Shown: in pieces, positions 27,228-37,905 of the stretch
Position numbering within the stretch: the first letter of the stretch is position 1
Layout of the letters: each line of letters opens with the position of its first letter
Assembly: GCA_017550285.1 (NCBI GenBank)
Contig: JAFZPP010000031.1
Span: 1-58,663, forward strand
Source of the DNA: Oscillospiraceae bacterium
GTDB taxonomy: Bacteria > Bacillota > Clostridia > Oscillospirales > Ruminococcaceae
DNA length: 58,663 nucleotides
Reading direction: 5' to 3'
Notes under the pieces: generated by a model
Told to the model about the DNA's origin: nothing
Databases searched by the model: none
The model's input: only the letters and a program-made list of their open reading frames with translations
Position numbers and translations under genes: made by a program

Positions 27228-28154
27228 TCAATCCTCCTTTCCGGACTGAATGCCGAGATAGCGCTTCAGTTCCTCAATATAAATGGTTCCCGCTTTGCTG
27301 CGGAGTGTTTTTTTCAGTGTGATATAGCCGATTTCCATTGCATCCTCATCCTCTGTTTCAAACGGCACGGCAATATAATCGCTGCCGTTCAGTTCCTCGC
27401 AGATGATGCCGGAGCAGAGCGTATAGCCGTTTAATCCGATCATCAGATTGAGCATCGTTGCGCGGTCATTTGCCTTGATTGTCCGCGGATACTCTGCCGT
27501 GCTCAGAATCTCCTCTGCGTAATAGAACGAGCTGTTTGCGCCCTGTTCAAAGGAAAGGCAGGGATAATCCGCAAGCTCGTCAAAGGTGATCTGCTTCCGG
27601 TTTGCCAGCGGATGTCCCTTCCAGAGATAGACAAACGGCTGGCATTTTGTAAGCGGGGTGAATTCCAGACCGTTGGCGCTGAGCAGCTTCGTGAGCGCCT
27701 TGCGGTTGAAATCGCTCAGGTACAGAATACCGATCTCGCTGCGCAGCGCAGCAACATCGCTGATGATCTCAGCCGTTTTCGTCTCGCGGATTGCAAACTC
27801 ATATTTTGCCGTATCAAAGCGCTTGACCATTTCCACAAACGCCTTGACCGCGAACGAATAATGCTGCGTAGATACGCCGAATTTCTTTTTGATATTGCTT
27901 TTTGCGCTGTATTTCTCGGTCAGGACATCGAACTGCCCGACGACCTGATGCGCATACTGCAAAAACTCCGCGCCGTCATTCGTGACGGTCACGCCTCTGC
28001 CGCTGCGGTTGAAAATCCGGATGCCGGTCTCCTTTTCGAGCTCCTGCACGGATGCCGTCAGCGAAGGCTGCGAGACATAGAGCAGCTCCGCCGCCTTGTT
28101 CATTGAGCCGGTTTCTGCGATTGTCAGCGCATATTTCAGCTGCTGCAACGTCAT
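27228..28154 (-). CDS. LysR-family transcriptional regulator
   Basis: The protein has 308 residues with an N-terminal winged helix typical of LysR regulators (LQQLKYALTIAETGSMNKAAE, then LYVSQPSLTASVQELE) and a substrate-binding-like effector domain. The start follows GAGGTG. It lies within the operon between cysK and the ECF gene, 12 and 2 bp away, unlike the divergent placement of many LysR genes. It is the only transcription factor in the block, so it is the prime candidate to bind the shared operator at the oxidoreductase, paaK and ABC promoters, and perhaps to sense a sulfur or acetylserine signal like CysB relatives. Confidence 0.9.
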   Translation of the reverse strand: MTLQQLKYALTIAETGSMNKAAELLYVSQPSLTASVQELEKETGIRIFNRSGRGVTVTNDGAEFLQYAHQVVGQFDVLTEKYSAKSNIKKKFGVSTQHYSFAVKAFVEMVKRFDTAKYEFAIRETKTAEIISDVAALRSEIGILYLSDFNRKALTKLLSANGLEFTPLTKCQPFVYLWKGHPLANRKQITFDELADYPCLSFEQGANSSFYYAEEILSTAEYPRTIKANDRATMLNLMIGLNGYTLCSGIICEELNGSDYIAVPFETEDEDAMEIGYITLKKTLRSKAGTIYIEELKRYLGIQSGKED

Positions 28155-28166
28155 AAAATCACCTCA

Positions 28167-29078
28167 TTATCCGAATAATCCGGTACTGAAATAACGGTCG
28201 CCGCGGTCGGGGAACACTGTGACAATATTGCCCCCGCCGACGCGCTCCGTCAGCTTTAAGACAGCCGCCATTGCCGCACCGGACGACGATCCTGCAAAGA
28301 TGCCTTCCGTTTTTGCAAGCAGACGGGCGGTCGAAAATGCTTCGTCATCCGTCACCTTGATCACATCATCGACCAGCGACATATCCATTGTCTCTGCGAT
28401 GAAATCATTGCCGATGCCTTCAATGTTGTAGTCGCTGTGCTCGCCGCCGCCCATAGTCGAACCGACCGGATCGGCAAGGATGCCGCGGATGTCGGGATTC
28501 CGCTCTTTCAGATAGCGCAGAATGCCGGTATAGGTTCCGCCGCTGCCTGCACCTGCGACAACATAATCAATTCTGCCGTCAAGCGATTCATAGATTTCCC
28601 TGCCGGTCGTTTCATAATGCGCAAGCGGATTGCTCTGGTTTTTGAACTGTTCCAGCGAGATCGAACCGGGAATCTGCGCCTTGATTTCCTCTGCCTTTTC
28701 GACTGCGCCGAGCATGCCTTTTTCACGCGGCGTATTGATGACCTCCGCGCCGAGTGCACGCATCAAAGCCTGTTTCTCCGCAGAGAATTTAGTCGGTACG
28801 ACGAAGATGATACGGTATCCGCGGTTCAGTGCCGCAAATGCGATGCCGAGTCCCGTATTGCCTGCGGTCGCTTCGACGATTGTGCCGCCCGATCTGAGCA
28901 CGCCGCGTTTTTCTGCATCATTCACCATGTAAAGCCCCGTTCTGTCCTTGACGCTGCCGGACGGATTCCAGAGCTCCAGCTTCGCAAAGACATTCACGCC
29001 CTGCTTTTGTACGATATTGCCGAGCCTGACCAGCGGCGTATTGCCGATCAGCGCCTGCATTGACTCATAATAATGCAT
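28167..29078 (-). CDS. cysK: Cysteine synthase (O-acetylserine sulfhydrylase)
   Basis: The 303-residue protein has the fold type II PLP signatures: SVKDRTGLYM with the PLP lysine, EATAGNTGLGIAFA, and GSGGTYTGILRY as the phosphate-binding loop. It makes cysteine from O-acetylserine and sulfide. It could also act as a cystathionine beta-synthase relative in reverse transsulfuration beside the cystathionine enzyme and SAH hydrolase; sequence alone does not settle this. The start at 29078 follows GGGGAGGG, one base after the ahcY stop. Confidence 0.9.
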   Translation of the reverse strand: MHYYESMQALIGNTPLVRLGNIVQKQGVNVFAKLELWNPSGSVKDRTGLYMVNDAEKRGVLRSGGTIVEATAGNTGLGIAFAALNRGYRIIFVVPTKFSAEKQALMRALGAEVINTPREKGMLGAVEKAEEIKAQIPGSISLEQFKNQSNPLAHYETTGREIYESLDGRIDYVVAGAGSGGTYTGILRYLKERNPDIRGILADPVGSTMGGGEHSDYNIEGIGNDFIAETMDMSLVDDVIKVTDDEAFSTARLLAKTEGIFAGSSSGAAMAAVLKLTERVGGGNIVTVFPDRGDRYFSTGLFG

Positions 29079-29079
29079 A

Positions 29080-30321
29080 TTATCCCTCCCCGTAAAGGTA
29101 CACACGCTGTTCATCGGTCAGCGTATCAATTTCAATGTTCATGGTCGCCAGCTTCTGCCTTGCGACGGCTTCATCCACTGCGCGCGGCACATTGTTCAGT
29201 ACGGATGTGACCGTATCGCGGTGTGCAATGAGCCATTCTGCACTGCGCGCCTGAATGGCAAAGCTCATGTCCATGATCTCCGCCGGATGTCCGTCGCCTG
29301 CTGCGAGATTCACCAGTCTGCCCTCTGCAATGACATAGATTGTCACGCCGCTCGGCAGCGTATAGCCGGTGATATTATTTCGCGCTTCAAAGCTGCGGAC
29401 AGCGAGCTTTTTCAGCGCCGCCATATCGACTTCGACGTCAAAATGTCCGGCATTGCTGAGAATCGCGCCCTCATGCATCTTCAAAAAGCTGTTTTCGGTA
29501 ATCACGCGGCTGCATCCTGTCACGGTCACGAAGAAGTCGCCCAGCGGTGCGGCATCCTCCATTTTCATGACGGTAAAGCCGTCCATGACCGCCTCGATTG
29601 CCTTGACCGGATCGACCTCGGTGACGATGACCTTCGCGCCGAGTCCCTTTGCGCGCATCGCAGCGCCCTTGCCGCACCAGCCGTAGCCTGCAATGACAAC
29701 TGTCTTTCCGGCGACAATCAGATTCGTTGTGCGGTTGATGCCGTCCCAGACGGATTGACCGGTACCGTAGCGGTTATCGAAAAGATGCTTGCAGTCCGCA
29801 TCATTGACAAGCATCATCGGGAATTTCAGTTCACCGGCTGCCGCCATCGCTTTCAGCCGCAGAATGCCGGTTGTCGTCTCCTCGCAGCCGCCGATTACAT
29901 TGCCGAGCAGCTCCGGATATTCATTATGAATGAGCGTCACGAGATCGCCGCCGTCGTCGATAATGAAATGCGGCTGTGCTTCGATCACGCGGCGCGTATG
30001 TGCTTCATATTCCTCCGGTGTGACGCCGTGCCAAGCATAAACATTCAGTCCGTTGTGTACGAGCGCCGCCGCGATATCATCCTGCGTGGAAAGGGGATTG
30101 GAGCCGGTGATATACATTTCCGCACCGCCTGCCGCCAGTACGCGGCAGAGATACGCGGTTTTCGCTTCGAGGTGAATCGAGAGGGCAATGCGTTTGCCTG
30201 CAAACGGCTTTGTCTTTGCAAATTCTGCTTCGATCCCGCGCAGCAGCGGCATATTTCCCTTTACCCACTGGATTTTCCGTTCGCCGCTCTCCCAGAGCGC
30301 AATATCTTTGATCTCAGACAT
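29080..30321 (-). CDS. ahcY: S-adenosylhomocysteine hydrolase
   Basis: The 413-residue protein has the NAD-binding GYGWCGKGAAMRAKGLGA and the substrate-site stretches NDADCKHLFDNRYGTGQS and SNAGHFDVE. It resembles the shorter bacterial/archaeal type. It splits SAH to homocysteine and adenosine, removing the by-product of the operon's methyltransferase and feeding the cystathionine enzyme. The start at 30321 follows AAAGGCGG; it overlaps the upstream gene by 8 bp. Confidence 0.94.
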   Translation of the reverse strand: MSEIKDIALWESGERKIQWVKGNMPLLRGIEAEFAKTKPFAGKRIALSIHLEAKTAYLCRVLAAGGAEMYITGSNPLSTQDDIAAALVHNGLNVYAWHGVTPEEYEAHTRRVIEAQPHFIIDDGGDLVTLIHNEYPELLGNVIGGCEETTTGILRLKAMAAAGELKFPMMLVNDADCKHLFDNRYGTGQSVWDGINRTTNLIVAGKTVVIAGYGWCGKGAAMRAKGLGAKVIVTEVDPVKAIEAVMDGFTVMKMEDAAPLGDFFVTVTGCSRVITENSFLKMHEGAILSNAGHFDVEVDMAALKKLAVRSFEARNNITGYTLPSGVTIYVIAEGRLVNLAAGDGHPAEIMDMSFAIQARSAEWLIAHRDTVTSVLNNVPRAVDEAVARQKLATMNIEIDTLTDEQRVYLYGEG

Positions 30322-31477
30322 TGGCAGCCGCCTTTCCGATTGCCTGTTCCAGATCGGCGAGAATATCCGCAATGTTTTCAATGCCGACCGAAAGACGGAT
30401 CAGCCCGTCTGTGATGCCGACCTTTTTGCGGATATCCGCCGGAATGGATGCGTGCGTCATGGTCGCAGGGTGGCAGACAAGCGACTCCACGCCGCCGAGG
30501 CTTTCCGCCAGCATCACGAGCTGCAAGCTCTCGAAGAAGCGGTTGATATCATAGCCCTCGTGCAGTTCAAAGGAGATCATCACGCCGCCGTTTTTCGCCT
30601 GCTTTTTGTTGATCTCATAGCCCTGCGCGTCCGGCAGCCCGGGATAATATACGGTTTTCACCGCCGGATGATTTTTGAGATATTCCGCCGCTTTCTGCGC
30701 ATTTTCCACATGTCTGTCCATGCGGACGGCAAGCGTTTTGATGCCGCGGATCAGCAAAAACGAATCAAACGGTCCGAGGACGCCGCCGGTCGAATTCTGG
30801 ATAAACGCGATCTTCTGCGCAAGCTCCGCGCTGTTCACAACGGCAAGTCCCGCGACGACATCGCTGTGACCGCCGAGATATTTCGTTGCGCTGTGCACAA
30901 CAATATCCGCGCCGAGCGAAAGCGGCTTTTGCAGATAGGGCGTCATGAATGTGTTATCGACAATCACAAGCAGCCCGTACCGGTGCGAAATCTCCGCAAC
31001 ACCGCGTATATCCGTGACTGTCATCAGCGGATTTGCGGGGCTTTCGATGATGACTGCTTTCACATCCGCCGTGATCTGCGTTTCAAATTTAGTGAGATCG
31101 GCGGTGTCTGCGATTGTATAGGTGATGCCGAAATGATCGAATACTTTGTCCAGCACGCGGAATGTTCCGCCGTAGACATTGCTCGAGATCAGTACACGGT
31201 CGCCGCTGTGCAGGAGACTCAGCACTGCCGTAATTGCCGCCATGCCGGAGCCGAATGCAAAGCCGGCATAGCCGCCCTCCAATTCCGCGATCAGCTTTTC
31301 CAGCGCTTCTCTTGTCGGATTTCCTGTGCGGGAATATTCGTATCCGCGCATTTTTCCGAGACCGTCCTGCTGATAGGTCGAGGTCTGGTAGATCGGCACA
31401 TTGACCGCGCCGGTGCGTTCGTCCGTAGAAATGCCGCCGTGAATCAAAGCGGTTTCTGTATGTTCAAATCTGCTCAT
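30314..31477 (-). CDS. Cystathionine gamma-synthase/lyase family enzyme
   Basis: The 387-residue PLP enzyme of the Cys/Met metabolism family has YEYSRTGNPT, GSGMAAI and the PLP-lysine motif HSATKYLGGHSD. It may make cystathionine from acyl-homoserine and cysteine, split cystathionine, or directly sulfhydrylate; these activities are hard to tell apart by sequence. The start at 31477 follows AAGGAG. The preceding stop lies 17 bp upstream. Co-operonic ahcY and cysK favour homocysteine-to-cysteine traffic. Confidence 0.9.
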   Translation of the reverse strand: MSRFEHTETALIHGGISTDERTGAVNVPIYQTSTYQQDGLGKMRGYEYSRTGNPTREALEKLIAELEGGYAGFAFGSGMAAITAVLSLLHSGDRVLISSNVYGGTFRVLDKVFDHFGITYTIADTADLTKFETQITADVKAVIIESPANPLMTVTDIRGVAEISHRYGLLVIVDNTFMTPYLQKPLSLGADIVVHSATKYLGGHSDVVAGLAVVNSAELAQKIAFIQNSTGGVLGPFDSFLLIRGIKTLAVRMDRHVENAQKAAEYLKNHPAVKTVYYPGLPDAQGYEINKKQAKNGGVMISFELHEGYDINRFFESLQLVMLAESLGGVESLVCHPATMTHASIPADIRKKVGITDGLIRLSVGIENIADILADLEQAIGKAAANV

Positions 31478-31494
31478 GATGATGCTCCTTATCA

Positions 31495-32394
31495 TTACTC
31501 AAAATCATAGCCTGCGGTATAGGTCGCCGAAAGCAGGCTGACATTTTCAAATGCTTTCATGCGGTCTGCGCGGCTGTCAAAATATTCTGCCTGCACCTTT
31601 TCCGGCGGCAGGTAGGTGTCGATCTGAAAGCCCAGCGCATAGAGTGCACGCGATACCTCGTTGTAATCGTATCCGCCGCGCATATGCTCGCCGAGCGATG
31701 CCGTGATCTGTTCAAGCCGGCGGACGCGCTCCGGAAAAACGCCGGTCTTCATCGGATAATCAAACACCAGCACGCTTCCCGGTACGGATAATTCCGCGAT
31801 CTGCTTCAGCGTATCCGAAAACACATCCAGCGTCAGATAATAGGTCACGCCGAGAATGCTGAAATAGGTCGGCAGCTGCGGATCGAAGCCCGCGTTCAGC
31901 AGTTCCTCCGTCATGCGCTGCCGCTCAAAATCGACCGGTACAAAATGCACATTCTCCCGAATATTCCATTCGAGCTGCCGGATGCGTTCGCGCTTATAGC
32001 GCTGTGTATCCGGATGATCAATCTCAAATATTTCGATGTCGGGATTGTCATTGCGGAATAAAAATGTATCCGAGCCTGCGCCGCAGATCACATACTGAAT
32101 CTTTCCGTGGTTTGCGGCAAAATCATGCAGGCGGTTCTCTGCGAAATGAATGCGGGCAAGCGGGATCGGTGCGATATATTCCGTGATGATCTGTTCGGTA
32201 TCCGCCCGTGAAAACGGGATATCCGCGCCGCCGAATCCGCTGCTGACGAGCGCATACATCGCATCATATTCCTCCTTGCCGATGAGATCAAAGGCGAGGT
32301 CATCTTCAAAAATCTTATCTCTCTCATGGATTGCGTGCCACGCTCTTGCAAAGGCACAGAGCTTCGCGGTCACGCTTTCTCTCTCAGCTACCAT
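31495..32394 (-). CDS. SAM-dependent methyltransferase of the LCMT/PPM1-like family
   Basis: The 299-residue protein matches the leucine carboxyl methyltransferase-like group. It has a Rossmann-type segment QYVICGAGSDTFLFR, the acidic stretch EIFEIDHPDTQRYKRERI and FSILGVTYYL. Bacterial members usually methylate small polyketides or unknown acids rather than PP2A. It is the first structural gene of the sulfur operon, sitting 17 bases after the attenuator's T-run, so it would be induced with homocysteine recycling genes. The start follows GGGAGGATTT. Its substrate is unknown. Confidence 0.83.
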   Translation of the reverse strand: MVAERESVTAKLCAFARAWHAIHERDKIFEDDLAFDLIGKEEYDAMYALVSSGFGGADIPFSRADTEQIITEYIAPIPLARIHFAENRLHDFAANHGKIQYVICGAGSDTFLFRNDNPDIEIFEIDHPDTQRYKRERIRQLEWNIRENVHFVPVDFERQRMTEELLNAGFDPQLPTYFSILGVTYYLTLDVFSDTLKQIAELSVPGSVLVFDYPMKTGVFPERVRRLEQITASLGEHMRGGYDYNEVSRALYALGFQIDTYLPPEKVQAEYFDSRADRMKAFENVSLLSATYTAGYDFE

Positions 32395-32410: not shown

Positions 32411-32444
32411 AAAAAGGCACAGTATGCTCATTGCACACTGCGCC
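32411..32444 (-). terminator. Attenuator terminator of the sulfur amino acid operon
   Basis: On the minus strand GGCGCAGTGTGC pairs with GCATACTGTGCC (wobble pairs included) around an AATGA loop and is followed by TTTTT. It lies between the leader peptide and the first structural gene. Confidence 0.82.
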
Positions 32445-32465
32445 TGATTCTTCATGTTACATGGC

Positions 32466-32573
32466 TTATGAGACATGAGAAAGCTGACATCGCTGCGATG
32501 CCGCGTGTGTATGAGACATTCGTATTCTGTTGTTCCGGATCATACAGCACAGCATACAGTACATTGCTTTCAT
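32466..32573 (-). CDS. Cys/Met-rich leader peptide of the sulfur operon
   Basis: The 35-residue frame starts MKAMYCMLCCM, with Cys or Met at six of residues 4-11. AGGAG is eight bases upstream of the ATG at 32573. The frame stops 21 bases before the attenuator stem. An alternative ATG at 32580 in another frame is only one base from the ribosome site and is therefore less likely. Known principle: ribosome stalling on scarce-amino-acid codons in a leader peptide controls a downstream terminator. Inference: this peptide senses cysteine and/or methionine charging. Confidence 0.72.
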   Translation of the reverse strand: MKAMYCMLCCMIRNNRIRMSHTHAASQRCQLSHVS

Positions 32574-32617
32574 GATTCATTCTCCTATTAACTATATTAC
32601 CTATCGGTTATGTATGC

Positions 32618-32646
32618 ATTATAGCACGAAAGAGGCGGCTTGTCAA
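32618..32646 (-). promoter_or_regulatory. Promoter of the leader peptide and sulfur operon
   Basis: On the minus strand TTGACA, 17 bp, TATAAT, preceded by TGC. It yields an mRNA leader of about 215 bases before the methyltransferase start, holding the leader peptide and the attenuator. Confidence 0.88.
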
Positions 32647-35811: not shown

Positions 35812-35949
35812 AAATCAAATTTACCTTTCTTATTTTCAGATTTCATGCGGACGGTTTATTGTGATTGCAGACATCGCATTCGCTCCGAAAAGCTCAGATA
35901 AACCGGATTCAGATTCATTGGATTCACTCCCTGTTGTTGGTATGTGTAT

Positions 35950-36006
35950 ATCATAGCATACATATAGGAATTTGTCCAATACAGATTGACGATAGGCAGT
36001 TATCGG
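35950..36006 (-). promoter_or_regulatory. ABC operon promoter with bipartite operator
   Basis: On the minus strand the -35 is TTGGAC, the spacer 18 bp and the -10 TATGAT. Upstream CCGATAACTG (complement of 35997-36006) and GTATTGGACAA (35972-35982) are 14 bases apart, exactly as before the oxidoreductase operon. Confidence 0.72.
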
Positions 36007-36148: not shown

Positions 36149-36348
36149 GAATTTAATCGCATCCTGTATGCTGATTGTACGGCGAAAAGAGAATCAGAGA
36201 ACGAATGGAAAACGGAACAGGATATCTGTCTGTGACGGTGTAATGTCCATCCGATTTTATCCGGAACATATGCTGCTCCCTGCTTGAAATGTACATGTGT
36301 TCCGCAGAGAAACAGTCCGAACAACATGGAAAACAGGAGGAAATCAAT

Positions 36349-37905
36349 ATGAAACGCAAACTGACATGTCTGGCAGCTTTTTTGCTGGCAGCGAACAGCA
36401 TTTTTCCCGTGTCAGCCGCGGAAACCGAGCTGCTGCACAGCGGTTTTGAGGAAGGGCTTTCCGGCTGGCAGGCACGCGGCGGCGCAAGCGTTGCAGTCTC
36501 CTCGGACGCTGCGGCAGAGGGCGCTGCATCTGCGCTGGTCTCAAACCGCAGCGATGCATGGAACGGCATTTCCTATGCCGTCGGCAGCATCTGTCCTGCC
36601 GGTACAAAATGCAGCGTAACGGCGCAGGTCATGCAGAAATCCGGCGAATCCGTACATTTCAAGATGACGATGCAGTACGGCAGCGGAAACAGTGCGGTCT
36701 ATGACACCTTTGCCGAGGGCGATGCGGCAGACGGCGAATGGCTCAGGCTCTCCGCCGAGAATTATACCGTCGGCGACGGCAGTGATCCGGTGCTCTATAT
36801 CGAGACCGAAGGCTCAACCTGTGATTTTTATCTCGATGAGGCGGTCGTGATCCGAACCGGCAGAGCACCCTCTCAGCCAGGAAAATACAAGCAGGGTGAT
36901 GCGGACCATAACGGCAAGGTCGAAGCTGCGGATGCGAACGTGCTCTGTGATTATCTGCTGACAAAGGACAGCGATGTCTACGAGGATACTGCCGATCTCG
37001 ACGGCGACGGCGCACTGACGGCGACGGATCTCTCCATGCTCAAGGATATGATTCTGAATCCGCCGCCTGAGCCCGAGCATGATACGGATTATATGTCGAA
37101 AATCCGCGATCAGGTTACGCCGAATGTTCCTTCCTCCGCACTGGGCAAAGCGGAGGGCACGCTCGAGCACATCACCTATTTCTCCAAGACGGCGAACCGT
37201 GACAAGGGCGCGAATGTCTGGCTGCCGCCGGGATATGATAAGAACGAGAAATATCCGGTTTTCTATGTCAACCACGGCTACGGCGGCGATGAATCCGCAA
37301 TGGTCAACGGCATGGGCGTCCGCGAAATCGCAACCAGTCTCATCAAGAGCGGCGATGCGGTTCCGATGATCATTGTATTCACCGACCAGTATTCCGACCC
37401 CGCACATCCGAAGCAGACCGGCAACGGTCAGGCGGACGTTTACGGCTACGATCTCTTTGTCGAGGATTTGCCGGGCAGCCTGATGCCCTATATCGAGGAG
37501 CATTATCCGGTCAAGACGGGGCGTGAGAATACCGCGATTGCAGGCTTCTCCATGGGCGGCAGAGAGTCGCTCTATATCGGCATGAAGTGCTGCGACAAGA
37601 TCGGTTATATCGGTGCGGGCGCACCGGCGCCGGGCATCTTCAAGACGAAGGATCAGTTCATGGATCATCCGGGCGTCATGACGAAGGAGGAGATCCGCAT
37701 TGATCCGCCGTATTCGCCGTATCTGCTGCTGATCGCGGGCGGTACGAGCGACAATATGGTCGGCACCTTCCCCGACCAGTATCATCAGCTCTTTGATGAG
37801 CACGGAACGGAAAACATCTTCCTTTCGGTGCCGGGCGGCGGACATGACAGCAAGACCGTCACGCCGATGATGTACAATTTCATCCGGTTTATTTTCAAGG
37901 CATAA
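36349..37905 (+). CDS. Cellulosomal CBM-dockerin-CE1 esterase (feruloyl or acetylxylan esterase)
   Basis: The 518-residue precursor has a signal peptide ending near VSAAE. Residues 25-180 resemble a CBM4/9/22-type beta-sandwich (a GFEEGLSGWQARGG start). A type I dockerin (about 184-240) has loops DADHNGKVEAAD and DLDGDGALTATD. The C-terminal esterase (about 245-518) is of the CE1/esterase D type with nucleophile motif GFSMGG and a GGGHDS region for the catalytic His. Such enzymes cut ferulate or acetyl esters on xylan. The start at 36349 follows CAGGAGG. Confidence 0.9.
   Translation: MKRKLTCLAAFLLAANSIFPVSAAETELLHSGFEEGLSGWQARGGASVAVSSDAAAEGAASALVSNRSDAWNGISYAVGSICPAGTKCSVTAQVMQKSGESVHFKMTMQYGSGNSAVYDTFAEGDAADGEWLRLSAENYTVGDGSDPVLYIETEGSTCDFYLDEAVVIRTGRAPSQPGKYKQGDADHNGKVEAADANVLCDYLLTKDSDVYEDTADLDGDGALTATDLSMLKDMILNPPPEPEHDTDYMSKIRDQVTPNVPSSALGKAEGTLEHITYFSKTANRDKGANVWLPPGYDKNEKYPVFYVNHGYGGDESAMVNGMGVREIATSLIKSGDAVPMIIVFTDQYSDPAHPKQTGNGQADVYGYDLFVEDLPGSLMPYIEEHYPVKTGRENTAIAGFSMGGRESLYIGMKCCDKIGYIGAGAPAPGIFKTKDQFMDHPGVMTKEEIRIDPPYSPYLLLIAGGTSDNMVGTFPDQYHQLFDEHGTENIFLSVPGGGHDSKTVTPMMYNFIRFIFKA

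Follow-up and report, generated by a model that had tools for sequence, protein, structure and literature searches.

In the window, the stretch of 58,663 nucleotides that was analyzed as a whole, an operon predicted to convert methionine to cysteine is preceded by a cysteine-rich leader ORF and an intrinsic terminator. The best account of this arrangement is a cysteine-sensing, ribosome-mediated transcription attenuator of the trp type, to which we assign a probability of about 0.86 on the basis of sequence comparison. In Bacillota, control by cysteine is usually ascribed to T-boxes, S-boxes, or repressors such as CymR. Attenuation is supported here by the persistence of leader and terminator in different genera and, according to the taxon labels, phyla, by a candidate alternative pairing that emerges from the leaders taken together, and by the lack of any detected S-box or T-box.

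Organization and conservation of the leader region

All regulatory parts and the operon lie on the minus strand, and the region from the promoter to the first gene spans positions 32646-32395 (Table 1). The original prediction had placed a promoter, a leader, and a T-run terminator in front of an operon for homocysteine and cysteine metabolism. These parts are present on that strand, and the functional assignment of the operon holds for the methyltransferase, the Cys/Met-type PLP enzyme, the adenosylhomocysteinase, the cysteine synthase-type PALP enzyme, and the LysR regulator. As judged from the predicted products, the gene set is that of a methionine-to-cysteine (reverse transsulfuration) operon; an ECF riboflavin-type S component is also encoded in it. 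The leader ORF starts with MKAMYCMLCCM, the terminator stem (32445-32415) comprises 13 pairs, and its T run reaches position 32411. The leader RNA is more stable than its dinucleotide shuffles (z = -3.29), with 1 of 200 shuffles being equally good. The crude scan of the window was by itself unremarkable, with two promoters found vs. 2.1 expected and three terminators found vs. 1.0 expected; the reality of the locus therefore rests on conservation.

Table 1. Features of the leader region, the operon, and a second leader-type ORF (window coordinates).
Feature	Position	Strand	Basis
Promoter TTGACA-17-TATAAT, TG before -10	32618..32646	(-)	12/12 consensus matches; 17-nt spacing in 18/18 genus loci
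CCGATAGG, element just past -10, candidate operator	32600..32607	(-)	invariant in 18/18 genus loci
Shine-Dalgarno sequence AGGAG of leader ORF	32582..32586	(-)	sequence, ATG start downstream
Leader ORF, 35 codons, MKAMYCMLCCMIRNNRIRMSHTHAASQRCQLSHVS	32466..32573	(-)	Cys-rich ORF in 18/18 genus loci
Cys/Met codon cluster, codons 4-11, presumed stall site	32541..32564	(-)	aligned genus leaders
Segment 1, inside Cys/Met codons, partner of segment 2	32547..32554	(-)	RNAalifold consensus, 18 leaders
Segment 2, CATACACACGCGGCA, candidate antiterminator strand	32499..32513	(-)	complementarity tests and RNAalifold; 2:3 not significant in window leader alone
CGA-TGT (Arg-Cys) codon pair, rare CGA	32487..32492	(-)	GCGATGT invariant in 18/18 genus leaders
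Segment 3, terminator 5′ arm	32433..32445	(-)	terminator scan and RNAalifold
Segment 4, terminator 3′ arm	32415..32427	(-)	terminator scan and RNAalifold
Terminator T run	32411..32415	(-)	terminator scan
LCM-type (TIGR00027) SAM-dependent methyltransferase, first gene, ATG at 32394	31495..32394	(-)	profile match
Cystathionine gamma-lyase / homocysteine desulfhydrase-like PLP enzyme (MccB-like)	30314..31495	(-)	best model 568.9 bits, below curated cut-off of 594
Adenosylhomocysteinase, from MSEIKD (listed ORF starts earlier, 30381)	29080..30321	(-)	profile match
Cysteine synthase / cystathionine beta-synthase-type PLP enzyme (PALP)	28167..29114	(-)	profile match
LysR-family regulator, after the enzyme genes	27228..28154	(-)	profile match
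Second leader-type ORF, MNLNPVYLSFSERMRCLQSQ, before sulfonate-type ABC operon	35856-35918	(-)	conserved in 21 aligned genus loci

The methyltransferase gene is present in 18 of 30 genomes of the genus, the window genome included. In each of these 18 loci it is preceded by a TTGACA/T-17-TATAAT-like promoter, a Cys-rich ORF, and a terminator hairpin; in locus L012 the leader ORF has no stop before the gene. Conservation of the leader frame, on which the original prediction had been staked, was thus found at all 18 genus loci. In a search of 396 genomes of the family, 30 gave a methyltransferase match at 1e-30, four of which are genus loci already counted. The other 26 comprise 16 loci with about 48% identity or more (L046-L061) and ten with 30-39% identity (L062-L071). 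By manual reading, a Cys-rich leader is present in 11 of the former 16 (L046-L051, L055, L056, L058, L060, and L061, with L049 and L050 being near-identical) and doubtful in L059, while no leader was seen at L052-L054 and L057; at L052 and L053 the methyltransferase gene comes shortly after the end of another coding sequence. The same reading gave no clear leader at the ten loci of 30-39% identity.

The scan of named genomes covered 75 loci, several of which are the same records as genus or family loci. Their labels include Ruminococcus flavefaciens FD-1, MC2020, ND2009, YRD2003, and SAb67 as well as Lachnospiraceae, Fibrobacter succinogenes, Spirochaetaceae, Treponema, and Gastranaerophilales; many of the loci stem from metagenome bins, and how far their taxon labels can be trusted depends on the binning. 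A leader was called when the 320 nt upstream held an ORF of 8-60 amino acids with three Cys within eight codons. Such a Cys-clustered ORF was found in 60 of the 75 loci, a count that includes at least one likely chance match (L136), compared to a mean of 7.25 and a maximum of 14 of 75 in 40 shuffle sets, 5/75 on the other strand, and 22/261 in control windows further upstream. Among the 15 misses, L099 and L112 correspond to L012 and L019, whose leaders were read in the genus set. The other 13 had no leader directly upstream, and by eye another coding sequence abuts the methyltransferase start in eight of them (L119, L124-L126, L130, L135, L137, L140). At L052, L053, L124, L125, and L130, a conserved coding sequence with the end ...KRIIDER... 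immediately precedes the leaderless methyltransferase gene.

Genes for MccB and PALP follow the methyltransferase gene on the same strand in 50 of the 75 named loci and MccB alone in five more. Neither was found in 20 loci, three of them at contig ends; several of the 20 have Cys leaders, so that the leader accompanies the methyltransferase also at some loci that lack MccB. Adenosylhomocysteinase is encoded downstream of the methyltransferase in six of the 75. As a separate observation, the methyltransferase gene of L120 (3755-9164, Lachnospiraceae label), which has a CCCC leader, is followed by a lipoprotein/ABC set and not by MccB or PALP; by eye, this set looks like one for the uptake of an amino acid, perhaps methionine.

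Codons were compared in those 13 of the 18 genus leaders that can be aligned over their first codons without gaps. In 11, 12, 12, and 12 of them, Cys is found at codons 5, 6, 9, and 10, respectively; Met is found at codon 4 in 12 and at codon 7 in 12. Outside the Ruminococcus clade the leaders read, e.g., MTKLSTNLNNILCCCCMLK, MNIQFARFCCSSDRC, MFKILKSYCQNCCCACCGRC, or DFSCLCCCP, with Cys constant and Met not; by eye, recurrent Met is limited to the Ruminococcus clade and the codons elsewhere are mostly Cys. The Cys codons of the genus leaders are TGT and TGC in a ratio of 67:30 vs. 3:23 in ten window genes, which all come from one genome (p = 1.5e-7). The remaining codons show weak constraint on the peptide (six leaders, pN/pS 0.81). 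Since Cys is constant and the rest of the peptide weakly constrained, the codons seem to matter more than the peptide, and the sensed amino acid is best read as cysteine.

Pairing within the leader and a proposed mechanism

When the 18 genus leaders were folded unguided with RNAalifold, the Cys-codon stretch paired with the downstream ACGCGGCA (1:2) and the terminator formed (3:4). For seven of the 25 consensus pairs, one or more of the 18 sequences differ at both positions and still pair; the 1:2 pairs were broken in up to four of the 18 leaders, and the covariation term was small (-1.07). In many leaders, the segment after the Cys cluster is complementary to the terminator 5′ arm, with wholly different sequences between groups. 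Examples are AACTCGGGCAT with TGCCCGAGTG in L120, ATACGTGTTCTGCGCG with TGCGTGGGATGCGTA in L047, and ACGGGCG with CGCCCGT of the terminator arm in Fibrobacter L149. Within the genus, segment 2 (CATACACACGCG) can pair in either of two registers, through CATAC with GTATG arms or through CACAC with GTGTG arms.

This complementarity was assessed with 32 representatives, hand-picked and non-random, out of the sets of 18, 16, and 75 loci, which overlap. ORFs and terminators were set by hand for L139, L152, L048, L019, L128, and L149, and terminators for L058, L061, and L142. Own segment/arm pairs were better than cross-pairs (0 of 200000 permutations as good, z = -6.1), and own segments were better than their dinucleotide shuffles (Stouffer -7.2, Fisher 4.4e-9, 12/32 at p ≤ 0.05). 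A control with reversed segments was also significant against cross-pairs (z = -4.1, p = 5e-5) and against shuffles (Stouffer -2.8, p = 0.009, 5/32), and therefore part of the complementarity signal is base composition. In an earlier test with 29 leaders, in which the segment was taken from 9 nt past the cluster and the site of L058 was clipped, eight leaders reached p < 0.05 (Fisher 1.6e-4). In L007, L008, L115, L118, and L128 the 2:3 complementarity was at chance level, and for the window leader taken alone the 2:3 duplex was not significant vs. dinucleotide shuffles (p = 0.25).

A ribosome that has the last Cys of the cluster in its A site would cover a mean of 0.21 of segment 2 and so leave most of it free. 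In L058, L118, L141, L142, and L144 it would cover most of the segment, and the stall would have to come earlier in these five leaders. In constrained folding of 27 leaders, upstream pairing of the terminator 5′ arm rose from 0.57 in the free RNA to 0.66 with a ribosome at the first Cys (p = 0.009) and 0.65 at the last Cys (p = 0.045), a modest effect of the stall.

According to the mechanism that we propose, RNA polymerase would start past position 32618 and a ribosome would begin the 35-codon leader, both steps being predicted from the sequence. When Cys-tRNA is plentiful, the ribosome would pass the Cys cluster and move over segment 2, so that terminator 3:4 could form and transcription would end ahead of the methyltransferase gene. 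When cysteine is short, the ribosome would stall in the cluster, with segment 1 covered and segment 2 free; the latter could then pair with the terminator 5′ arm (2:3) and the polymerase would continue into the operon, whose genes would provide cysteine from methionine via SAM, SAH, homocysteine, and cystathionine. If the leader is not translated, 1:2 and 3:4 would form and the operon would be off. The 2:3 and 1:2 steps are derived from computation and comparison, and the response to cysteine is one that we infer.

The heptamer GCGATGT, invariant in the genus leaders, is always in frame as Arg-Cys, and CGATGY occurs in frame within the Cys-rich ORF in 42 of the 75 named loci, which belong to the Ruminococcus clade or are Fibrobacter-like (one labelled Deltaproteobacteria). 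CGA is a rare codon: ten window genes use it for 3 of 142 Arg positions. With CGA in its A site, a ribosome would cover 67% of those bases of segment 2 that are paired vs. an average of 40% over all positions (n = 15, descriptive). We suggest tentatively that the CGA-Cys pair may park the ribosome over segment 2 and so secure termination, but constrained folding gave no support for parking, as the 5′ arm was paired upstream at 0.62 with a ribosome at Arg-Cys and at 0.66 with one at the Cys cluster (n = 23, p = 0.24).

Competing explanations and known systems

The original prediction had been attenuation through a Cys/Met leader peptide. Its attenuator part is well supported by the comparison of orthologous leaders, which also confirmed the Cys codons, whereas dual sensing is borne out only in part, with conserved Met codons in the Ruminococcus clade. 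If a stall at either Cys or Met codons gave read-through, the Met codons 4 and 7 of the aligned genus leaders would be explained, as would the Met residues that flank the Cys run in R. flavefaciens. However, by eye the leaders outside the Ruminococcus clade are mostly Cys only or nearly so, and Met codon 7 falls within the RNAalifold 1:2 helix, so that its conservation may serve RNA pairing. Moreover, switching on a methionine-consuming pathway during methionine shortage would make little sense. We therefore regard a dual Cys/Met sensor as rather unlikely. In another reading, which we consider very improbable, the ribosome would be arrested by the nascent Cys-rich peptide, acting as a sensor of a metal, an oxidant, or a thiol, and codon supply would not matter. 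A Cys-Cys-Met-x-Cys-Cys motif could bind a soft metal, as known from general chemistry, and the C-terminal Arg-Cys is conserved, but the number and spacing of Cys vary widely (from CC to CCCCCC), as expected for codons and unlike a binding site, and sulfur amino acid genes lie downstream in most loci. The leader peptides matched no family in NCBIfam (six peptides) or Pfam (three peptides).

Since the unit has a strong promoter and a terminator of its own, it might be a separate gene for a small RNA or small protein, with the operon transcribed from another promoter. We give this almost no credence, as the scan found no promoter-like site in the 16 nt between terminator and gene, antiterminator complementarity is seen at the level of the whole group, and across groups the unit is found together with the methyltransferase. 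A DNA-binding regulator of the LysR or Rrf2/CymR-like type acting at CCGATAGG, with the leader being vestigial, would account for the invariance of this element in 18/18 genus loci and could be encoded by the LysR gene within the operon or by the one Rrf2 gene in the genome. It would leave the conserved Cys clusters and terminators unexplained, and as the sole control it is highly improbable. Both layers may act together, however: because CCGATAGG is invariant and, by eye, CCTA..ATAGG-like sequences are also found at Fibrobacter and Treponema promoters, such a regulator may act in addition to attenuation. With respect to other sulfur-responsive RNAs, covariance models gave no match to any Rfam family, S-box (RF00162) and T-box (RF00230) included, in the window, and the Rfam scan of 12 related loci returned tRNAs but no riboswitch or T-box. 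At a lax threshold only weak matches appeared, located at the hairpin of the upstream operon. The single S-box of the genome precedes metK (gene named by eye). The best three of its four T-box matches precede acyl-CoA synthetase-like, ilvB-like, and trpE-like genes (by eye), and the fourth, with 29.3 bits, is below the cut-off.

The proteobacterial trp, his, leu, thr, and ilv attenuators combine a short ORF led by a Shine-Dalgarno sequence, clustered regulatory codons, segments 1-4, and an intrinsic terminator. The cysteine attenuator proposed here has the same design: a short ORF with a ribosome-binding site and predicted translation (AGGAG, ATG) ahead of the first gene, a cluster of codons for the amino acid whose supply the operon is predicted to serve (Cys, with MccB and PALP in 50/75 loci), candidate segments 1-4, and a terminator between leader and gene in 18/18 genus loci. 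It differs in that cysteine would be the regulatory amino acid, in its occurrence in Bacillota and, by label, in Fibrobacter and spirochaetes, and in the CGA-Cys pair conserved near the leader end in part of the leaders.

For the Cys leader peptides of Mycobacterium, P. acnes, and B. longum (cbs), the Cys codons are described as lying close to the stop and a conserved terminator hairpin as lacking (PMC1262725), and the Cys sORFs of M. smegmatis are described as leaderless and acting by translation attenuation (PMC13236596). What these share with our locus is a short ORF with runs of Cys codons that precedes genes for cysteine, whereas the ORF studied here is led by a Shine-Dalgarno sequence and comes with a candidate antiterminator segment and an intrinsic terminator; the leaderless start and the lack of such a terminator that mark the mycobacterial polycysteine sORFs are not found. 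In bacilli, His leader peptides replace T-boxes at hisS/hisZ genes (PMC2965389), which is similar to the present case in that a Firmicutes leader peptide takes the place of a T-box, and unlike it in the codons and genes concerned. The Clostridium ubiG-mccBA operon, which also leads from methionine to cysteine, is controlled by a Cys T-box and an S-box antisense RNA (PMC2940859). A methyltransferase, MccB, and an MccA-type enzyme are common to both operons, as is, if our proposal is correct, cysteine control by premature termination; in place of the T-box and the S-box antisense RNA our operon has a predicted leader peptide, and it differs further by an LCM-type methyltransferase and by the adenosylhomocysteinase of this genome. 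The latter presumably stands in for luxS or mtnN of clostridial ubiG-mccBA-type operons.

Leader-peptide attenuation as such is known. Titles and abstract openings among the matches listed in our literature search held no cysteine leader attenuator in Bacillota or Fibrobacter, weak evidence given that subscription journals were mostly outside its scope, and on this evidence the cysteine-sensing version in these groups appears to be new. If the proposed reading is correct, a Cys-codon attenuator accompanies one methyltransferase/methionine-to-cysteine operon from Ruminococcus to Fibrobacter and represents a cysteine sensor that searches with riboswitch models miss. It would suggest how fibre-degrading bacteria manage cysteine, and it would provide a cysteine leader with an intrinsic terminator in which the stall codons and the second site, CGA-Cys, are open to codon swaps.

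A second leader-type ORF upstream of an ABC transporter operon

Within the second leader-type ORF, in front of the neighbouring sulfonate-type ABC operon, CGAATGCGAT is invariant in 21/21 aligned loci, followed by a Cys codon directly in 18 and one codon later in three. The encoded RMRC is correspondingly conserved (RMRFC or RMRYC in the three), with the Cys codon after the rare CGA. A 22nd locus, L044, was dropped, as its match begins inside the gene, and the extra pattern matches L085 and L087 were set aside because they look like chance matches inside other genes. No T-run terminator was seen at this leader. RNAalifold gave no consensus structure for the 21 sequences, with 0 pairs predicted, and so did not support GAATGCG...CGCATTC, a hairpin of the RMRC leaders that had been noticed by eye. 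An attenuator before an alkanesulfonate transporter is mentioned for bacilli in PMC2965389. It is conceivable, though we hold this as a tentative and rather doubtful idea, that the Cys leaders have two ribosome stops each, namely a starvation stall at the Cys cluster and a holding pause at CGA-Cys over the antiterminator segment that would enforce termination in replete cells, and that with the same CGA-Cys pair standing alone in the M...RMRC leaders of the sulfonate-type ABC operon they form one leader-peptide cysteine regulon.

By eye, CGATA-N6-TATCG is located upstream of the ABC promoter (35990-36005, minus strand); this sequence and CCGATAGG suggest a shared DNA-binding regulator. The window's own genome holds a second copy of the ABC binding-protein gene (L043 / L091, C24) with an RMRCC leader of its own. 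On the plus strand of the window, positions 36289-37905 encode what we take to be a secreted esterase-like protein with an apparent dockerin module, recognized by eye from its motif.
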